IMG/VR virus record: IMGVR_UViG_3300041964_000083
Span: 1-64,000 of that record
Origin: a virus
Reading direction: 5' to 3' (one strand)
Length of the DNA stretch: 64,000 nucleotides
Both the position numbers and the translations under genes were made by a program. This document shows positions 2,330-22,182 of this stretch, in pieces (the first letter of the stretch is position 1; each line of letters begins with the position of its first letter). The notes below the pieces were generated by a model. The model was not told where the DNA came from and ran no database searches. It saw nothing but the letters and a program-made list of their open reading frames with translations.

Positions 2330-2785
2330 ATGACCACTACAACATCAAAATACGTAGCAGAACTACTTAACCCAGAGTCGTTTGAAGGGTTATTAGAACG
2401 GTTACTTAAGCGCGACCCAGAATTTATCAAAAGAAATTGGGATTCAGGTACATACCAGATTCGGTTAAACGACTATTGGATGGTGGTTTCTGGCAACAAT
2501 CCAGACGATTTTGATTTCATGCGCTTAGACCGTGCAATCCGATCGCGCATTAATGAAAGAGGCTGGAAATACGGGCTAGGAATAATGTCGGGCGTGGCTT
2601 TAAATAGTCAATTAGCACGTATCTATATCCCTGGAAACGATGATTTAAATCCAATGATGCCAAGAGCTTTATGGATATGGGAGAGCCATAGCACAGAAGA
2701 TGCGATCGCACTCCTTAGGGCCTACGTAAAAGCAGTAGAAACAATATCGGAATCAAAAAATGCTGATACAACAGAAGCAGCATAA
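2330..2785 (+). CDS. Hypothetical protein, first gene of early operon
   Basis: A 151-residue soluble protein I cannot assign. It has a basic-aromatic N-terminal half (RDPEFIKRNWDSGTYQIRL) and an acidic C-terminus. It begins after the divergent control region and overlaps the thymidylate synthase start by 26 bases, so the two are probably co-transcribed and translationally linked. Confidence 0.6.
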   Translation: MTTTTSKYVAELLNPESFEGLLERLLKRDPEFIKRNWDSGTYQIRLNDYWMVVSGNNPDDFDFMRLDRAIRSRINERGWKYGLGIMSGVALNSQLARIYIPGNDDLNPMMPRALWIWESHSTEDAIALLRAYVKAVETISESKNADTTEAA

Positions 2786-4169
2786 GTACACCGCACTCCA
2801 TAAACCCAACCAGCTTATTTATGGTACGGGAACGGTTGTGGTTGTGACAGGTTGGACGCCTAAAGAACGGGTAGCGAAGTTGCTCAAACCAGAGCAGTAT
2901 GCTGTAATCGGTAACCTTTACTCACCTGCGGGTGTTGACTTAATTGTTCGCAATGTCCTTAACAATCCCCATGTCACAGGATTGCTAATTATTGACGCCA
3001 CTCAGCAGGATAAAGCATCAGGGGCGATAGAAGCGTTGATTCAGTTCCTTGCGGGTGCAGAAAATGTTGGAAACGATATTGCACCTTCAGACATTGAGCG
3101 TGTACAGAGAATGCGATGGACAGCTCTTTTTGGTTTAGACCGCTCACAACTACGCGATCGCATAGACTTACTAGAAAATAACAAACCCCTTGGTGGGGAA
3201 CCCAAGGTTTGCCCAATCCCTGAAATTAAAAGCAATATCGTTCCTAGTCCTTTGTATGGACATCGGGTGGAAGGAGCGACAATTGCCGAGACTTGGGTAA
3301 AAATATTGCATCGTATCCGTACTGGTGGCGTGCTACGACCAACAGGTTATGACGGGCAATGGCAAGAGCTGATTGATTTGATGGCTGTGGTTACAGATGA
3401 ACCGGAGGAGTTTTATTTTCCCGAACCAAACTACTTACCCTGCGATCGCGAGTTCATAAAAAACTACATTCCATCAATTCTTGAAGATGCACCCTATATA
3501 CAAGGAGTAAAGTACACATACGGACAACGGTTGCGATCGCATTTTGGCTACGACCAAGTTGAGCAGGTCGTGCAGAAATTAGCAGGTGAGATCGACGCCG
3601 CTAGTGCCGTTATGAGTTTATGGGATGCGGCTGATCATGAACGGGGTGGCAGTCCTTGCTTAAATCAAGTTTGGGTGCGAGTGGTTAATGGTGAATTATC
3701 CCTGACTGCCGTATTGCGCTCAAACGATATGTTTAACGCTTGGGCATCCAATGCTTTTGGTCTAAGAGCACTACAGATGCACATCCGAGAGCGTATCGAG
3801 TGTGAAACCAATCAAACGTTCACGCTTGGTCCACTCATCACCCTCTCTCAATCCGCGCATTTATACGACCATTCATTTGCATACGCCGATGAAGTGGTGC
3901 AAGAGTACTACGGCAAGGCTCCAAAAACATACTCAGACCCTGTGGGGAACTACCTAATTGAAGTGGTGGAAAACCAAATCAAAGTTTCTCGAATGGACGC
4001 GACAGGTAACACGGTGCGGGAATACGTTGGGCGAAATGTTGCGGCGTTGCAAGATGCGATCGCACTTGATGCTCCAGCCATGCAGGTTCAACACGCCATG
4101 TATTTAGGCTCTCAACTTGACAAAGCTTGGAATGCATTGCGATACAACGAAAAATTCATACAGGGGTAA
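2760..4169 (+). CDS. Thymidylate synthase (ThyA-type catalytic domain with extra N-terminal domain)
   Basis: This enzyme would make dTMP from dUMP with methylene-tetrahydrofolate, for phage DNA synthesis. The catalytic domain is in the C-terminal half. The nucleophile is Cys300 in SPCLNQVWVRVVNGELSL, followed by the conserved RSNDMFNAWASNAFGLRALQ region, which holds the Arg and Asn residues of the ThyA fold. The first ~170 residues form a separate alpha/beta domain (VVVVTGWTPKERVAKLLKPE) resembling the DUF4346-type domain attached to thymidylate synthases in cyanobacteria and archaea. At 469 residues it is far longer than E. coli ThyA (264). It sits directly upstream of ribonucleotide reductase genes, forming a deoxynucleotide supply block. 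Confidence 0.85.
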   Translation: MLIQQKQHKYTALHKPNQLIYGTGTVVVVTGWTPKERVAKLLKPEQYAVIGNLYSPAGVDLIVRNVLNNPHVTGLLIIDATQQDKASGAIEALIQFLAGAENVGNDIAPSDIERVQRMRWTALFGLDRSQLRDRIDLLENNKPLGGEPKVCPIPEIKSNIVPSPLYGHRVEGATIAETWVKILHRIRTGGVLRPTGYDGQWQELIDLMAVVTDEPEEFYFPEPNYLPCDREFIKNYIPSILEDAPYIQGVKYTYGQRLRSHFGYDQVEQVVQKLAGEIDAASAVMSLWDAADHERGGSPCLNQVWVRVVNGELSLTAVLRSNDMFNAWASNAFGLRALQMHIRERIECETNQTFTLGPLITLSQSAHLYDHSFAYADEVVQEYYGKAPKTYSDPVGNYLIEVVENQIKVSRMDATGNTVREYVGRNVAALQDAIALDAPAMQVQHAMYLGSQLDKAWNALRYNEKFIQG

Positions 4170-4480: not shown

Positions 4481-5836
4481 TTGATACAAGTTCCGAAATA
4501 CTTAAGCGTCACGGGACGCATTGAAGATTGGTTGAAGAATCCAGAAAGTAGACTTCCTGTATCTTGCACTGTACTTGAAGTTAAAGACTCGATGGAAGGT
4601 CGAGACGGAATTGAAGATAGCTGGTTATTTACTAGCAAAGCACTACGCTATGCCGCAGGAGTTGCACTGGAGCTATCCAACATCCGACCCAAAGGGTTAA
4701 GTAATGGTCGGGGACTTGTCGCATCGGGTCCTGTAAGTTTCTGTCAGATGTATTCTAAGCTCAACGAAATACTGCGTCGGGGTGGAATATATAAAAATGG
4801 CGCTATCACCACTTACCTTGACTACCTCCACCCAGATGCTGCCGAATACCTCAATGCCACACGCAATGAGTTGCCGTGGGTGAAGAGAGCATTGTATGTT
4901 GACAAAGATTTTTTAACATCGCCCTTGTTTCCGGTCATTAAAGCCAAAGTTGACGATGGGACGGTGTGGTTGGCTAAAAAAAAGTGGGATAAAAACGGTA
5001 ATCGCCTATTCTCCCAAGTTTGTTTAGAAATACTACTGCGATCTCGTGGTACGTGCCTACTCGTCCACGTAAATTTAGGAAAAACACCCATCTCGAAAAT
5101 TCCAGAAGCGTTTAAAACAGGGATGCAGTTTTTATGTGAGATTCATAGTCGAACCGGTGTTGGTGAATCTGGCATTTACCTTTCACCTGAAGAAGACCGT
5201 CAGGTGGGATTGGGTGTACTGGGTCTTGCCAATTTACTAGCCATTGAAGGTGTATCTTACATTGAGTTAGTTGAAGCGATGGAGCAAGTTCTGTCTCCAC
5301 ACCATCACGCCTACACTGGAACAAAAACTGAAGAAATTGCCTTTGCGCTATTTGAAGGGTTCTATCAAGCCGCCAATGTTGCGCGATTTTATGGAATGGA
5401 ACGCGCCTTTACAATCGCGCCAACCGCCAGTTGTTCCTATCGATACCGAGACAGAGAAGGCTACACCACCGCGCCAGAGATTTCCCCTCCCAACTGCCAT
5501 CCGGTTACCAAAGAGGTAGACCGTGACTCCGGTACGTTTGGCGTGATGACGTACCAGTACCACCCTGACACCGAAACAGCCGCATCTGTTGAATGGGATA
5601 CCCAATGGCGGTTACTTAATGTGTGGCAGCGCTATATGGAAAGTACAGGATTGGCGCACTCCATCAGTGCCAATATCTGGGATAAGCAACCTGTTGATGA
5701 TAATTTTCTAAGCGATTGGTGGGAATCAGACCTTGTTACCACCTATTACCGATTAGTCACACAGCAAGCCGCTGTGGACAAAAGTACGGTTTGGAATCAG
5801 TGCGACGAAAACGTTTGTATAGCCTGTGCAGAGTGA
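4481..5836 (+). CDS. Ribonucleotide reductase alpha subunit, very short cyanophage type
   Basis: It reduces ribonucleotides to deoxyribonucleotides together with the beta subunit encoded next. Visible motifs: Cys88 in SFCQMYSKLN as a candidate redox partner; Cys181-x-Glu183 (QVCLEI), matching the active-site C-x-E; Cys192 in GTCLLVHVNLG, matching the second active-site cysteine; and C-terminal Cys441, Cys446 and Cys449 (CDENVCIACAE) as the disulfide-reloading tail. At 451 residues it is much shorter than the usual 700-1000, with no ATP-cone region. Cyanophages are known to encode such minimal class I alpha subunits related to class II enzymes. The start is a TTG at 4481. Cofactor class is inferred from the adjacent beta gene. 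Confidence 0.8.
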   Translation: MIQVPKYLSVTGRIEDWLKNPESRLPVSCTVLEVKDSMEGRDGIEDSWLFTSKALRYAAGVALELSNIRPKGLSNGRGLVASGPVSFCQMYSKLNEILRRGGIYKNGAITTYLDYLHPDAAEYLNATRNELPWVKRALYVDKDFLTSPLFPVIKAKVDDGTVWLAKKKWDKNGNRLFSQVCLEILLRSRGTCLLVHVNLGKTPISKIPEAFKTGMQFLCEIHSRTGVGESGIYLSPEEDRQVGLGVLGLANLLAIEGVSYIELVEAMEQVLSPHHHAYTGTKTEEIAFALFEGFYQAANVARFYGMERAFTIAPTASCSYRYRDREGYTTAPEISPPNCHPVTKEVDRDSGTFGVMTYQYHPDTETAASVEWDTQWRLLNVWQRYMESTGLAHSISANIWDKQPVDDNFLSDWWESDLVTTYYRLVTQQAAVDKSTVWNQCDENVCIACAE

Positions 5837-18775: not shown

Positions 18776-19495
18776 ATGAAACACAACGCTATTACATCTG
18801 CAACAATATTAAAGATGAATGCTCCAAACTTTGCCAAGCGCTCTAAACCTATACTCCCATCAAATGCCCCTACCTTAGTCACGGCATTTACTTGTGGGGG
18901 ACTGTTTGAGATCGGGGCAATGTATGCGGGGTTCCGTCCTGTTTTAGGCGTTGAGTTTTATCCAGCTAAAGGCAAGAAAGACGATAAGGTGAAGCAGCGT
19001 CAATCCGCTGCCGCTGCCGACAACTACGAGCGGAACTTTGGTACGCACATAATTCGACAAAGCATTGAAGACGCTGTACGCGATCGCGTCTTCGTTTCAT
19101 ACCGCCCCAATGCTTTTCACTGCTCCCCCAGCTGTACGAATTTAAGCCAAGGGAATACCAAAGGAAGTGAAGACGACGGTGATGTTAGTGCGGCAACAGC
19201 AATTACGCAAGCTATAGCTCAACTGGGGTATCCAGAAATCTTCACGTTAGAGAATGTTGAAGCTTACCAAAAGTCAGAATCATGGCTCATCATTTGCAAT
19301 TTCCTTTACGCCAATGGGTACGGAGTATCAGCAGATGTAGTTTGGGCAAGTGACTACGGAAATTTAGAGACAGGCGAAGGCGTACCCCAAGATCGGAAGC
19401 GCTTTATCGTCCGTGCCGTGAGAAATCATTTTGCACCACCACTCCCCCTTAAAGTTTCAAACGGATGGGATGGTACTGTGCAATCGCAGACTTGA
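18776..19495 (+). CDS. C5-cytosine DNA methyltransferase, N-terminal (alpha) half
   Basis: A 239-residue protein carrying motifs I-VIII of C5-methyltransferases: AFTCGGLFEIGAMYAGFRP (SAM loop), CSPSCTNLSQGN with nucleophile Cys120 (motif IV), LENVEAY (motif VI), and GVPQDRKRFIVRA (motif VIII). It stops right after NGWDGT, before the target-recognition domain, which continues in the next ORF in another frame. The break coincides with GATGG duplicated at 19464-19473: removing one copy restores one continuous enzyme. Split C5 enzymes such as M.AquI of a marine cyanobacterium are known and active. Confidence 0.8.
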   Translation: MKHNAITSATILKMNAPNFAKRSKPILPSNAPTLVTAFTCGGLFEIGAMYAGFRPVLGVEFYPAKGKKDDKVKQRQSAAAADNYERNFGTHIIRQSIEDAVRDRVFVSYRPNAFHCSPSCTNLSQGNTKGSEDDGDVSAATAITQAIAQLGYPEIFTLENVEAYQKSESWLIICNFLYANGYGVSADVVWASDYGNLETGEGVPQDRKRFIVRAVRNHFAPPLPLKVSNGWDGTVQSQT

Positions 19496-22182
19496 TTGAT
19501 GAATTACCCAATGGTGAGCTTGCCCCGTGGCAAATTTACCGTCTACCTAAATTAGCCAAAAACTTACTGATTGACCCCAATAATCCCAGTCGCAATTACA
19601 CCGCGACTGATTGTTCGCGAGGGGTTCCGTCTGCTCTGTTACTTAACGGGCAGAATGCCTCTAACAAGGAAGTTCCCCACAAACAAGATAATGAGCCAGC
19701 ATTTTCCATCACCTCTGGAGCTAAATGGGCATCAGCGCTACTAATCGAACGCGCCGGCGCAAGTGATGCTCGTATCACTACCCGCACCCAGGACGAACCC
19801 GCATGGACACTTCGCTCATCTATTGGTACTGACCAAGCTGGACGTAATCGGAACGAGGTAATGAACGCTCTAGTTGGAGGTCGGGTTAAAAAATTAAATG
19901 CTCGTGCGATCGCGCGGCTGCAATCTGTTCCCGATTGGTATATCCTCCCCGACCAAATGAAAGATGCTGGACCACTCATCGGTAATGGCGTGCCTCCGTT
20001 ATTGAGCGAAGCCATTATGCGATCGCTTCTTCCTTATGTTCGCCAAAATCAAACTGAACTCAAACTGAACTCACCCTGCATTCAGACTGAACCGCAACTG
20101 AATATTCAATCAACATTCACACCAAGTTCAGATCAAGTTCAAACCAAGTTCAGCCTGAACTCAGTCGCACCTCATCCTGAACTGGCAAATGTAGAGGAAT
20201 CATTGAATGTTGAGCAAAAACCAGAGTTTACCCACAATTCAGCCATACTTCAGCCTGAGTTCACTCTGAGTTCAGACCAAGTTCACCACAATTTCAATAA
20301 CAATTCATATGGAGTTCAACCCACAACAGTTTCCCAAGGGGAGCGAAGCTCGTGCGCGAAGTCAAGAGCGACGGCAGAGAATTCAAGAACGTTTGGAAGA
20401 GGAACCAGCGACAACACCAGAATTAGCCGAGGAAGTTTACGGGGATTCGAGCAAGGTGAGGCAACGTCAAGTAGTCAAAGCTTACCTAGAGCCTTTGAAA
20501 ATCGAAGGGGAAATCGAAAAGGACGACAACGGCGTCTGGAAAAAGAAGAAATAATTCAGTGCAATTCTATTGAACCTACATTGAAGGTTCAATCAGCATT
20601 CACTGACAGTTCAGACCGAGTTCAGACTGAGTTCAGTCGAAGTTCAGTCGAAGTTCAACCAATTATTGAAAAACACAAGGAGAAAATTATGGTAGCTGCA
20701 CCAATAAACATTGTTTCTAAAGAAGCAGATGAGCAATACACACCTAACACCAAAGACCAACCTGTTGTTAACTTGGTAATTCAAGTGTTAGGTCAAATCG
20801 GTGTAGACGTTACCGCAGACTCAAACCGCCATGTTCCTGCAACGCATCACATCACTCAACAAGAGAATTACTTGCTAACAAGTGTCGAAGGGATGGGTAC
20901 GGCATTTATGAACCCACCTTATTCATGCCCTCTTCCATTTGTCCAAAAACTCTGCGCTGATTTTGCCGCCGAACATATTACCGAAGCGATCGCGCTTCTC
21001 AAAGCAGGGACTGCTCACAACCAAGGTACTGGCACACTCATTAAACAGCACGCTTCAGCTCAGTGCCAATGGGGCGTACATACCGGGCGTATTGGATTTA
21101 TTAAAGATGGCAAACAACGTAAAGGCGCTGATTTTGACTGCACACTTTACTACTTTGGCTCCAGCTGGCAGAAGTTTAAAGAAGTATTCGACGCTTGGGG
21201 ACTAGTGAGCTTGTTGCCTAAAGCTCAATCTCAGTTAATTCATATCAGCGACTTCCGAGAACAACGCGCTACTGACGACCAATTGACAACGGATAGTTGT
21301 CAGTCTGATCTAACCTACGACGAACAGCGCGATCGCCTACACCTCGAAAGAGAAGTAGAACAGGGTTTTCACAAAGCTGGCAAGGCACTGATGCATTTGC
21401 GTGATCGACGCCTCTACCGCTCCACACACCCGTCATGGGAAGCTTACTGCCAAGATAGATTTGTTTTTTCTCACCAGAACGCAGATAAGAAGATTGCCGC
21501 AGCGCGGGTTGTGGATGTATTGACATCGAATCATTGTCAACTATTACCTAGCTGTGTCGAACAAGCTTATCCCTTATCGAAACTGAAAGAAGAAAAAGAA
21601 ATTGTTGAATCGTGGGAGGAGTTGACCCAAGAAGGTAAGCGTCCATCCGGTCGGCGTGTGAGTGCCGTTGTTGCTGAAATATGCGATCGCCAACTAGCAC
21701 GCGGCGAGTACCACAACCCTTGGAAAGTCGGAGATATCTGCCAAATTCACAAAAAAGGTGACGCGACACTAGCAAAGTACGACGGATTATGGTCTGTTGT
21801 TAGTGAAGTAAAACCTAGACAGTGCGTTGTCAAGGTTTGGAACAAGGAGGTCTTGGTGAAAGCAGAAAATTTAGAAGAGCTACAAGTTGGGGAAGATTTT
21901 TTAAGTGTGTGCGATCGCATCCGTTCTCTTATGTCGCGACACATCAACGGCGATATCGAACTTAAGCGCGGACAGCTACGCTTTCTAGAAGCATTGGGTG
22001 AGCAGTCATCAATGTTTGAACCAGAAGACTTACAAATTCTTAAGTGTATTGAAGCGATAGCAAATAATCGTGATGCATCACTGGTGCAGGCTGCTGCATT
22101 GATTGTGGATAATATTGAGTATTTGATTCCAGAAGAAGTTCAAGATTTATCCGTAGCTTTACGCTCAACGCATGGCTTTTGA
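19465..22182 (+). CDS. C5-methyltransferase C-terminal half joined to N6-adenine methyltransferase region
   Basis: One open frame of 905 codons. Residues 1-190 are the target-recognition region and motifs IX-X of the C5 enzyme (ADLIDELPNGELAPW, ARLQSVPDWYILPDQM, GPLIGNGVPPLL). Residues ~195-410 are a low-complexity Gln/Ser/Asn linker made of GTTCAG-type DNA repeats, part of which overlaps a small gene in another frame. From ~410 a phage-type adenine methyltransferase follows (QYTPNTKDQ, catalytic NPPY at 483). Then come a helical region (SWEEYC-like HPSWEAYCQDRF) and a KOW-like end. No stop separates the two enzymes. Whether a true fusion is made is uncertain, because a good internal start exists at 20689. 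Confidence 0.65.
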   Translation: MGWYCAIADLIDELPNGELAPWQIYRLPKLAKNLLIDPNNPSRNYTATDCSRGVPSALLLNGQNASNKEVPHKQDNEPAFSITSGAKWASALLIERAGASDARITTRTQDEPAWTLRSSIGTDQAGRNRNEVMNALVGGRVKKLNARAIARLQSVPDWYILPDQMKDAGPLIGNGVPPLLSEAIMRSLLPYVRQNQTELKLNSPCIQTEPQLNIQSTFTPSSDQVQTKFSLNSVAPHPELANVEESLNVEQKPEFTHNSAILQPEFTLSSDQVHHNFNNNSYGVQPTTVSQGERSSCAKSRATAENSRTFGRGTSDNTRISRGSLRGFEQGEATSSSQSLPRAFENRRGNRKGRQRRLEKEEIIQCNSIEPTLKVQSAFTDSSDRVQTEFSRSSVEVQPIIEKHKEKIMVAAPINIVSKEADEQYTPNTKDQPVVNLVIQVLGQIGVDVTADSNRHVPATHHITQQENYLLTSVEGMGTAFMNPPYSCPLPFVQKLCADFAAEHITEAIALLKAGTAHNQGTGTLIKQHASAQCQWGVHTGRIGFIKDGKQRKGADFDCTLYYFGSSWQKFKEVFDAWGLVSLLPKAQSQLIHISDFREQRATDDQLTTDSCQSDLTYDEQRDRLHLEREVEQGFHKAGKALMHLRDRRLYRSTHPSWEAYCQDRFVFSHQNADKKIAAARVVDVLTSNHCQLLPSCVEQAYPLSKLKEEKEIVESWEELTQEGKRPSGRRVSAVVAEICDRQLARGEYHNPWKVGDICQIHKKGDATLAKYDGLWSVVSEVKPRQCVVKVWNKEVLVKAENLEELQVGEDFLSVCDRIRSLMSRHINGDIELKRGQLRFLEALGEQSSMFEPEDLQILKCIEAIANNRDASLVQAAALIVDNIEYLIPEEVQDLSVALRSTHGF
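20040..20660. repeat. Cluster of GTTCAG/CTGAAC-type short repeats
   Basis: Many copies of CTGAACTCA, GTTCAGACTGAGTTCAG and close variants, in both orientations, fill the join between the two methyltransferase parts. They encode the low-complexity peptide (LNSP, SSDQVQ, PEL). The same repeat family recurs between 25.1 and 26.7 kb outside this gene. Confidence 0.7.
20309..20554 (+). CDS. Small winged-helix-like protein, out of frame within the methyltransferase join
   Basis: An 81-residue reading frame that looks like a real protein: a basic helix (RARSQERRQRIQERLEEE), then TTPELAEEVYGDSSKVRQRQVV and YLEPLKIEGEIEKDDNGVW, which fits a winged helix ending in a wing hairpin. The overlapping 905-codon frame reads Ser/Arg-rich low-complexity sequence over the same bases, as a shadow frame would. 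There is no strong ribosome-binding site. It may be a former independent gene captured between two methylase genes. Confidence 0.5.
   Translation: MEFNPQQFPKGSEARARSQERRQRIQERLEEEPATTPELAEEVYGDSSKVRQRQVVKAYLEPLKIEGEIEKDDNGVWKKKK
20689..22182 (+). CDS. N6-adenine DNA methyltransferase, possible independent start
   Basis: The ATG at 20689 has a strong ribosome-binding site (AAGGAG eight bases upstream), which a purely fused protein would not need. The 497-residue product begins MVAAPINIVSK and holds the whole adenine methyltransferase: SAM-site region, MNPPYSCP (Asn75), DFDCTLYYFG, then the HPSWEAYCQDRF-type helical domain often attached to cyanobacterial plasmid and phage proteins, and a KOW-like C-terminus. 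It would methylate adenine in a short site, possibly for defence against host restriction. Confidence 0.6.
   Translation: MVAAPINIVSKEADEQYTPNTKDQPVVNLVIQVLGQIGVDVTADSNRHVPATHHITQQENYLLTSVEGMGTAFMNPPYSCPLPFVQKLCADFAAEHITEAIALLKAGTAHNQGTGTLIKQHASAQCQWGVHTGRIGFIKDGKQRKGADFDCTLYYFGSSWQKFKEVFDAWGLVSLLPKAQSQLIHISDFREQRATDDQLTTDSCQSDLTYDEQRDRLHLEREVEQGFHKAGKALMHLRDRRLYRSTHPSWEAYCQDRFVFSHQNADKKIAAARVVDVLTSNHCQLLPSCVEQAYPLSKLKEEKEIVESWEELTQEGKRPSGRRVSAVVAEICDRQLARGEYHNPWKVGDICQIHKKGDATLAKYDGLWSVVSEVKPRQCVVKVWNKEVLVKAENLEELQVGEDFLSVCDRIRSLMSRHINGDIELKRGQLRFLEALGEQSSMFEPEDLQILKCIEAIANNRDASLVQAAALIVDNIEYLIPEEVQDLSVALRSTHGF
21283..21302. repeat. Dispersed palindrome, copy 3 (in coding sequence)
   Basis: TTGACAAC, spacer GGATA, GTTGTCA. 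In frame within the adenine methyltransferase, it encodes LTTDSCQ at a boundary between domains. Confidence 0.75.
21520..21540. repeat. Dispersed palindrome, copy 4 (in coding sequence)
   Basis: TTGACA, spacer, TTGTCAA, with a changed inner pair (TTGACATCGAATCATTGTCAA). It lies in frame within the methyltransferase gene. Confidence 0.65.

Follow-up and report, generated by a model that had tools for sequence, protein, structure and literature searches.

An apparent one-base frame break in a fused C5/N6-adenine methyltransferase gene of a tailed phage

Two-chain C5 methyltransferases and the phage locus

C5-cytosine methyltransferases assembled from two polypeptides are known both as natural enzymes and as engineered ones. 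In M.AquI, the natural two-subunit precedent from cyanobacteria, the large subunit comprises motifs I-VIII together with part of the variable region, and the split thus lies inside that region (PMC3404938). M.EcoHK31I likewise consists of two chains that make one C5 enzyme; its large chain, however, also holds motif X and the recognition domain, and motif IX alone is separate (PMC3404938). Artificially produced N- and C-terminal fragments of M.SssI, M.HhaI, M.BspRI and M.BsuRI complement each other in vivo (PMC3404938). The best M.SssI C-terminal fragments begin in the interval from motif VIII to the recognition domain, and in the proximal variable region the fragments need not overlap, although even the best artificial M.SssI pairs reach only ~4% of full activity (PMC3404938).

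The window analysed here comprises the first 64,000 nucleotides of an IMG/VR virus record of 153,952 bases. This record represents a genuine tailed phage, encoding a head maturation protease, a major head protein, an endolysin and a 3821-aa tape-measure protein, and the relatives of the phage point to filamentous cyanobacteria as hosts. The methyltransferase locus is situated in the replication region, 3' of DnaB and the DNA polymerase III alpha gene. Its nearest relative was found on another IMG/VR contig, IMGVR_UViG_3300036939_000049 (hereafter L003). Elsewhere, the window encodes (2760-4169) a thymidylate-synthase-like protein of 469 aa that ends in PterinBD-DUF4346; of this protein, only residues 1-29 and 397-469 have a match in the L003 phage, which lacks the middle.

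As the initial annotation had recognised, a single C5 methyltransferase is spread over two open reading frames, designated ORF1 and ORF2, which lie in different frames and overlap by 31 nt (Table 1). Each half separately exceeds the Pfam cut-off for PF00145, the profile being matched from position 13 to 165 by ORF1 (E 9e-12) and from 255 to 322 by the start of ORF2 (E 2e-7). Alignment revealed all C5 motifs across the pair, namely F-x-x-G-G, SPSC with the catalytic Cys, ENV, PQDRKR, the motif-IX-like RAIARLQSVPDWY and GNGVPP. The PF00145 motifs I, IV (Cys), VI (ENV), VIII (QxRxR), IX and X are accordingly all present, but they do not share one reading frame, as the frame changes at 19451-19464. 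By homology to L003, ORF1 probably starts at ATG 18815; its product is 77-81% identical to that of L003, and its final ~10 codons ahead of the TGA at 19493-19495 are out-of-frame read-on. ORF2 had been regarded simply as the second half of the C5 enzyme. It does hold this half, which is 75% identical to L003 with a dN/dS well below 1, but it continues into a linker, a Dam-type methyltransferase and a C-terminal domain. The latter has no Pfam match and is 63% identical to its L003 counterpart; tblastn matched 70 cyanobacterial plasmid records, mostly over residues 615-851.

Table 1. Features of the methyltransferase locus (coordinates are those of the window)
Feature	Coordinates	Strand	Remarks
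ORF1	18776..19495	+	239 aa; N-terminal C5-cytosine methyltransferase, motifs I-VIII, catalytic SPSC, ENV, PQDRKR
Frame-break interval	~19451..19464	+	Net one base short of L003, from codon listing and alignment
GATGGGATGG	19464..19473	+	Within inherited CGG ATG GGA TGG (R-M-G-W); identical in L003 6667-6678
ORF2	19465..22182	+	905 aa
C5 methyltransferase C-terminal part	19465..20048	+	Head of ORF2; target recognition, motifs IX and X
Linker, TTCA-repeat-rich, 11-bp period	20049..20688	+	TRF arrays; open in ORF2 frame; L003 has one too
Nested 81-aa ORF	20309..20554	+	ORF1 frame, inside linker; weakly winged-helix-like
AAGGAG (20677-20682) and ATG (20689-20691)	20677..20691	+	Probable independent adenine methyltransferase start
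Dam-type (PF05869) N6-adenine methyltransferase	20689..21270	+	NPPY motif; PF05869 E 1e-9, phrog_111 E 1e-13
C-terminal domain	21271..22182	+	Common to cyanobacterial plasmid proteins and L003

In its general layout, the locus resembles M.AquI: motifs I-VIII and motifs IX-X are borne by separate, overlapping ORFs, and the setting is cyanobacterial. The initial annotation had placed the M.AquI split in the same region, which is true of this division of motifs but not of the exact point, since M.AquI is divided inside the variable region and the phage gene is broken at its very start, at approximately M.HhaI residues 184-188. In addition, the second chain of the phage pair carries an adenine methyltransferase, and any joint activity of the pair is putative, whereas two-subunit activity has been proven for M.AquI. 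The division also differs from that of M.EcoHK31I, where only motif IX is separate. A match in position is offered by engineered split M.SssI and M.HhaI, where, too, the best break comes after motif VIII and ahead of the recognition domain; those pairs, however, are artificial and of low activity.

An apparently missing base beside an inherited motif

The ten-base sequence GATGGGATGG lies at 19464-19473, exactly where the initial annotation had located it. That annotation considered it to be a tandem duplication of GATGG that split the gene and, at the same time, generated the ATG of the second half. Neither proposal withstands comparison with L003, which contains one unbroken ORF of 1158 codons that is 68% identical to the window (77% in a gapped alignment over the C5 region). 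At the equivalent place L003 has CGGATGGGATGG, in frame as R-M-G-W, the surrounding codons reading CAG CGG ATG GGA TGG TTG (Q-R-M-G-W-L), and CGGATGGGATGGT is identical letter for letter between the window and L003. Because an intact gene shares both the apparent GATGG duplication and its ATG in frame, these are inherited coding sequence. The comparison with relatives that had been suggested as a check thus rules out the duplication as the cause of the split: a single intact ORF tolerates the same motif.

The difference in frame amounts to a single base. The distance from PQDRKR (motif VIII) to the codon of a conserved Trp is 68 nt in the window versus 69 nt in L003. The change cannot sit 5' of ~19451, as a TAA in the ORF2 frame occupies 19450-19452; the frame break therefore appears to be the loss of one base just 5' of GATGGGATGG. 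It had also been claimed that dropping one GATGG would fuse the two ORFs. The frames do join arithmetically upon removal of 5 nt, but the loop between motif VIII and the Trp would then comprise 21 residues, two below the 23 found in L003, PCC 7822, PCC 7424 and PaV-LD, whereas the one-base difference accounts for the full 23. Loop length alone is not decisive, because the more distant Nostoc copies also have 21 residues; it is the shared motif that decides. Alignment showed the outgroups to be unbroken across the break point, and hence the unbroken form to be ancestral. The pattern is that of a pseudogene or a recent break, with relatives intact in the same frame and a derived lesion. The break and its position, the inherited 10-bp motif and the intact state of the relative can all be read directly from the aligned sequences.

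Nothing suggests that the junction bears marks of programming or design. RNA folding at this site is ordinary (z -0.6), with no stimulatory structure, TRF reported no array at the break, and no long repeat was found there. The longest run past the TAA, including the lesion interval, is 3 nt. ORF2 lies in the -1 frame of ORF1, and the usable overlap (19453-19492) contains no slippery heptamer of the form X-XXY-YYZ. Ahead of ATG 19465 there is no Shine-Dalgarno sequence, although such a motif is seen at the first ATGs of only 22% of the long ORFs of this phage, versus 6% of all ATGs. At 32% of sites in the intact L003 gene, a true-frame ATG stands ahead of the shifted-frame stop; a tidy overlap of the two ORFs therefore needs no special cause. 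A codon-usage frameshift scan of both records missed even breaks proven by homology and was dropped as uninformative.

Accounting for the break

The explanation that we favour, tentatively and at somewhat less than an even chance, is a recent, ordinary, net one-base frame break in the C5 part of a fused C5/N6-adenine methyltransferase gene of a cyanobacterial tailed phage. The lesion would lie just 5' of the inherited motif, within the short linker that connects motif VIII to the target-recognition domain. Translation from the gene start would yield the large catalytic domain and end at 19495, while the recognition part, being in the other frame, would be reachable only via a fresh start at ATG 19465, which has no Shine-Dalgarno sequence to support it. 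C5 methylation in this genome would then most likely be lost or strongly reduced. The adenine methyltransferase and the C-terminal domain could still be made from ATG 20689, a presumably independent start with a good Shine-Dalgarno sequence. Because the adenine methyltransferase has its own Shine-Dalgarno sequence and ATG, the break would hit mainly the C5 activity, and the adenine methyltransferase need not be affected. Of the three options weighed in the initial annotation, a knock-out and an AquI-like split are still apt, whereas a reversible switch loses its basis.

Both halves appear to be under purifying selection, with dN values of 0.12 and 0.19 against a near-saturated dS and with all catalytic residues kept, which suggests that the break is either young or tolerated. 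This pattern fits a young break, an error and a working split equally. Several points count against an ordinary break. No second lesions have accumulated in either half, and the break is located in the very linker where split C5 methyltransferases complement best (PMC3404938); judging from linker length, a random break would be expected to fall there about one time in 10. The lesion is, moreover, a single base in one metagenome contig, which is compatible with an assembly error.

Breakage in this plasmid and phage C5 family is common and occurs at scattered positions. In a survey that covered plasmids and 386 cyanobacterial genomes, individual copies were found to be broken in different ways: in L103 a TAG interrupts the gene near motif II, L104 is frameshifted within its N half and L106 close to motif IX, L105 is truncated after motif VIII, and L006 has received an IS4 insertion. 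In plasmid pP742402 of Gloeothece citriformis PCC 7424 (L004), a TAG at 4610-4612 replaces a conserved Trp; it sits in the corresponding linker, ahead of the recognition domain, and the gene is annotated there as two genes. Two shortened copies in genome G302 stop at contig ends and were excluded from the broken count.

Nearly as likely as an ordinary break, though still unlikely taken by itself, is that the gene has the unbroken form of L003 and that the record misses one base through a sequencing or assembly error. The otherwise perfect preservation of both halves is in keeping with such an error, as is the state of a histidine kinase gene at 151866-153213 of the same record, which spans several frames in otherwise well-conserved segments and shifts frame near 5-nt homopolymers, the look of indel errors. 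The kinase gene is, however, close to the contig end and may be truly decayed, and the interval around the methyltransferase lesion contains only 3-nt runs. Furthermore, ORF lengths are distributed in this record as they are in the L003 record, and the other window genes held in common with L003 are unbroken; the record is thus not generally error-ridden. On balance, we infer that the break is real. The kinase homologue itself (G000, locus L014, outside the window) has a CHASE3-HisKA-HATPase organisation and represents either a decayed gene or local sequencing errors.

It is rather doubtful, though conceivable, that the two polypeptides assemble into an active C5 methyltransferase in the manner of M.AquI, the second chain also bearing the adenine methyltransferase. 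Such a working split would profit from the position of the break, from the retention of all motifs and from an ATG that opens the second ORF, and it would have both the M.AquI precedent and the in vivo complementation of engineered fragments behind it. That ATG, however, lacks a Shine-Dalgarno sequence and was inherited rather than evolved for a split, the engineered pairs have little activity, and at this point a single chain is found both in the closest relative and in the outgroups. Protein scans of viral and genome contigs revealed the same split in no second genome, and a DNA scan across viral contigs, plasmids, phages and 386 cyanobacterial genomes revealed the same junction nowhere else, the records closest to the window possibly being omitted from both. 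The split is therefore not one kept in related genomes: the only close relative is intact, and the other breaks seen across the family sit at different places or are of a different kind. A gene pair on a Calothrix NIES-4101 plasmid, considered as a second split, proved to be a compact, complete C5 gene beside a KilA-N/Dam gene. Less probable still is the more specific proposal of a natural phage two-chain C5 methyltransferase, divided where the variable region begins, whose recognition subunit is tied to the adenine methyltransferase such that one polypeptide serves both methylations.

Programmed -1 ribosomal frameshifting that joins ORF1 to ORF2 would be permitted by the relative frame and the usable overlap, yet it is very improbable given that the site has neither slippery heptamer nor downstream structure and that the intact relatives need no such mechanism. 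The least credible proposal, a reversible on/off switch through gain and loss of a GATGG unit, works on paper after a 5-nt loss but meets a poor slippage substrate of two 5-bp units, both of them fixed, inherited and shared with intact L003 instead of varying in number among relatives, would shorten the 23-residue loop, and has no one-unit form in the DNA scan across the junction.

Relatives and the adenine methyltransferase slot

L003 occupies the same spot in a shared gene order 3' of DnaB and has the same type of linker, in addition to the similar C5 part and C-terminal domain described above. It differs from the window in being a single 1158-aa ORF, in having a longer target-recognition region and in carrying an adenine methyltransferase of the D12 class (PF02086). 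More distantly, the plasmid C5 methyltransferases of Gloeothece PCC 7822, PCC 7424 and Nostoc, together with that of phage PaV-LD, belong to the same C5 family and are often encoded beside DnaB. In PCC 7822 the C5 gene also continues into this C-terminal domain; unlike the window and L003 genes, the plasmid and PaV-LD genes lack an intervening adenine methyltransferase domain. The same slot is filled by unrelated adenine methyltransferases in the window phage and the L003 phage, a Dam-type enzyme at 20689-21270 of the window and a D12-type enzyme at 7720-8460 of L003, while the flanks of the swapped slot (the C5 part and the C-terminal domain) are homologous between them.

The linker has features of its own. 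TTCA-rich repeats with an 11-bp period lie in the linker frame of both phages (window 20049-20690, L003 7400-7705); because this period is not a multiple of 3, they could be binding repeats acting at the DNA level rather than a protein linker. The ORF nested in the window linker has its own ATG and stop and resembles PF0610-like_N (E 4e-4, below the curated cut-off); a search for relatives of this 81-aa ORF found none. Across it, the ORF2 frame is Ser/Arg-rich and does not look like a protein domain. The target-recognition region, in turn, seems to be built of ~34-residue units of the form EPAxT-x(10)-ALLxxR (L003 6800-7170, window 19560-19840), and L003 appears to be one unit longer than the window, although similarity between units is weak (shuffle p ~0.002-0.03).

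The main value of these comparisons is a correction: the 10 bp that catch the eye as a repeat belong to conserved coding sequence, and the gene is broken by a one-base change of a kind that recurs in these plasmid and phage methyltransferases. Should the two halves work together, the pair would constitute a second cyanobacterial two-chain C5 enzyme and show such a split at its beginning. For its part, the exchange between related phages of one adenine methyltransferase for an unrelated one in the same slot may deserve more attention than the split.
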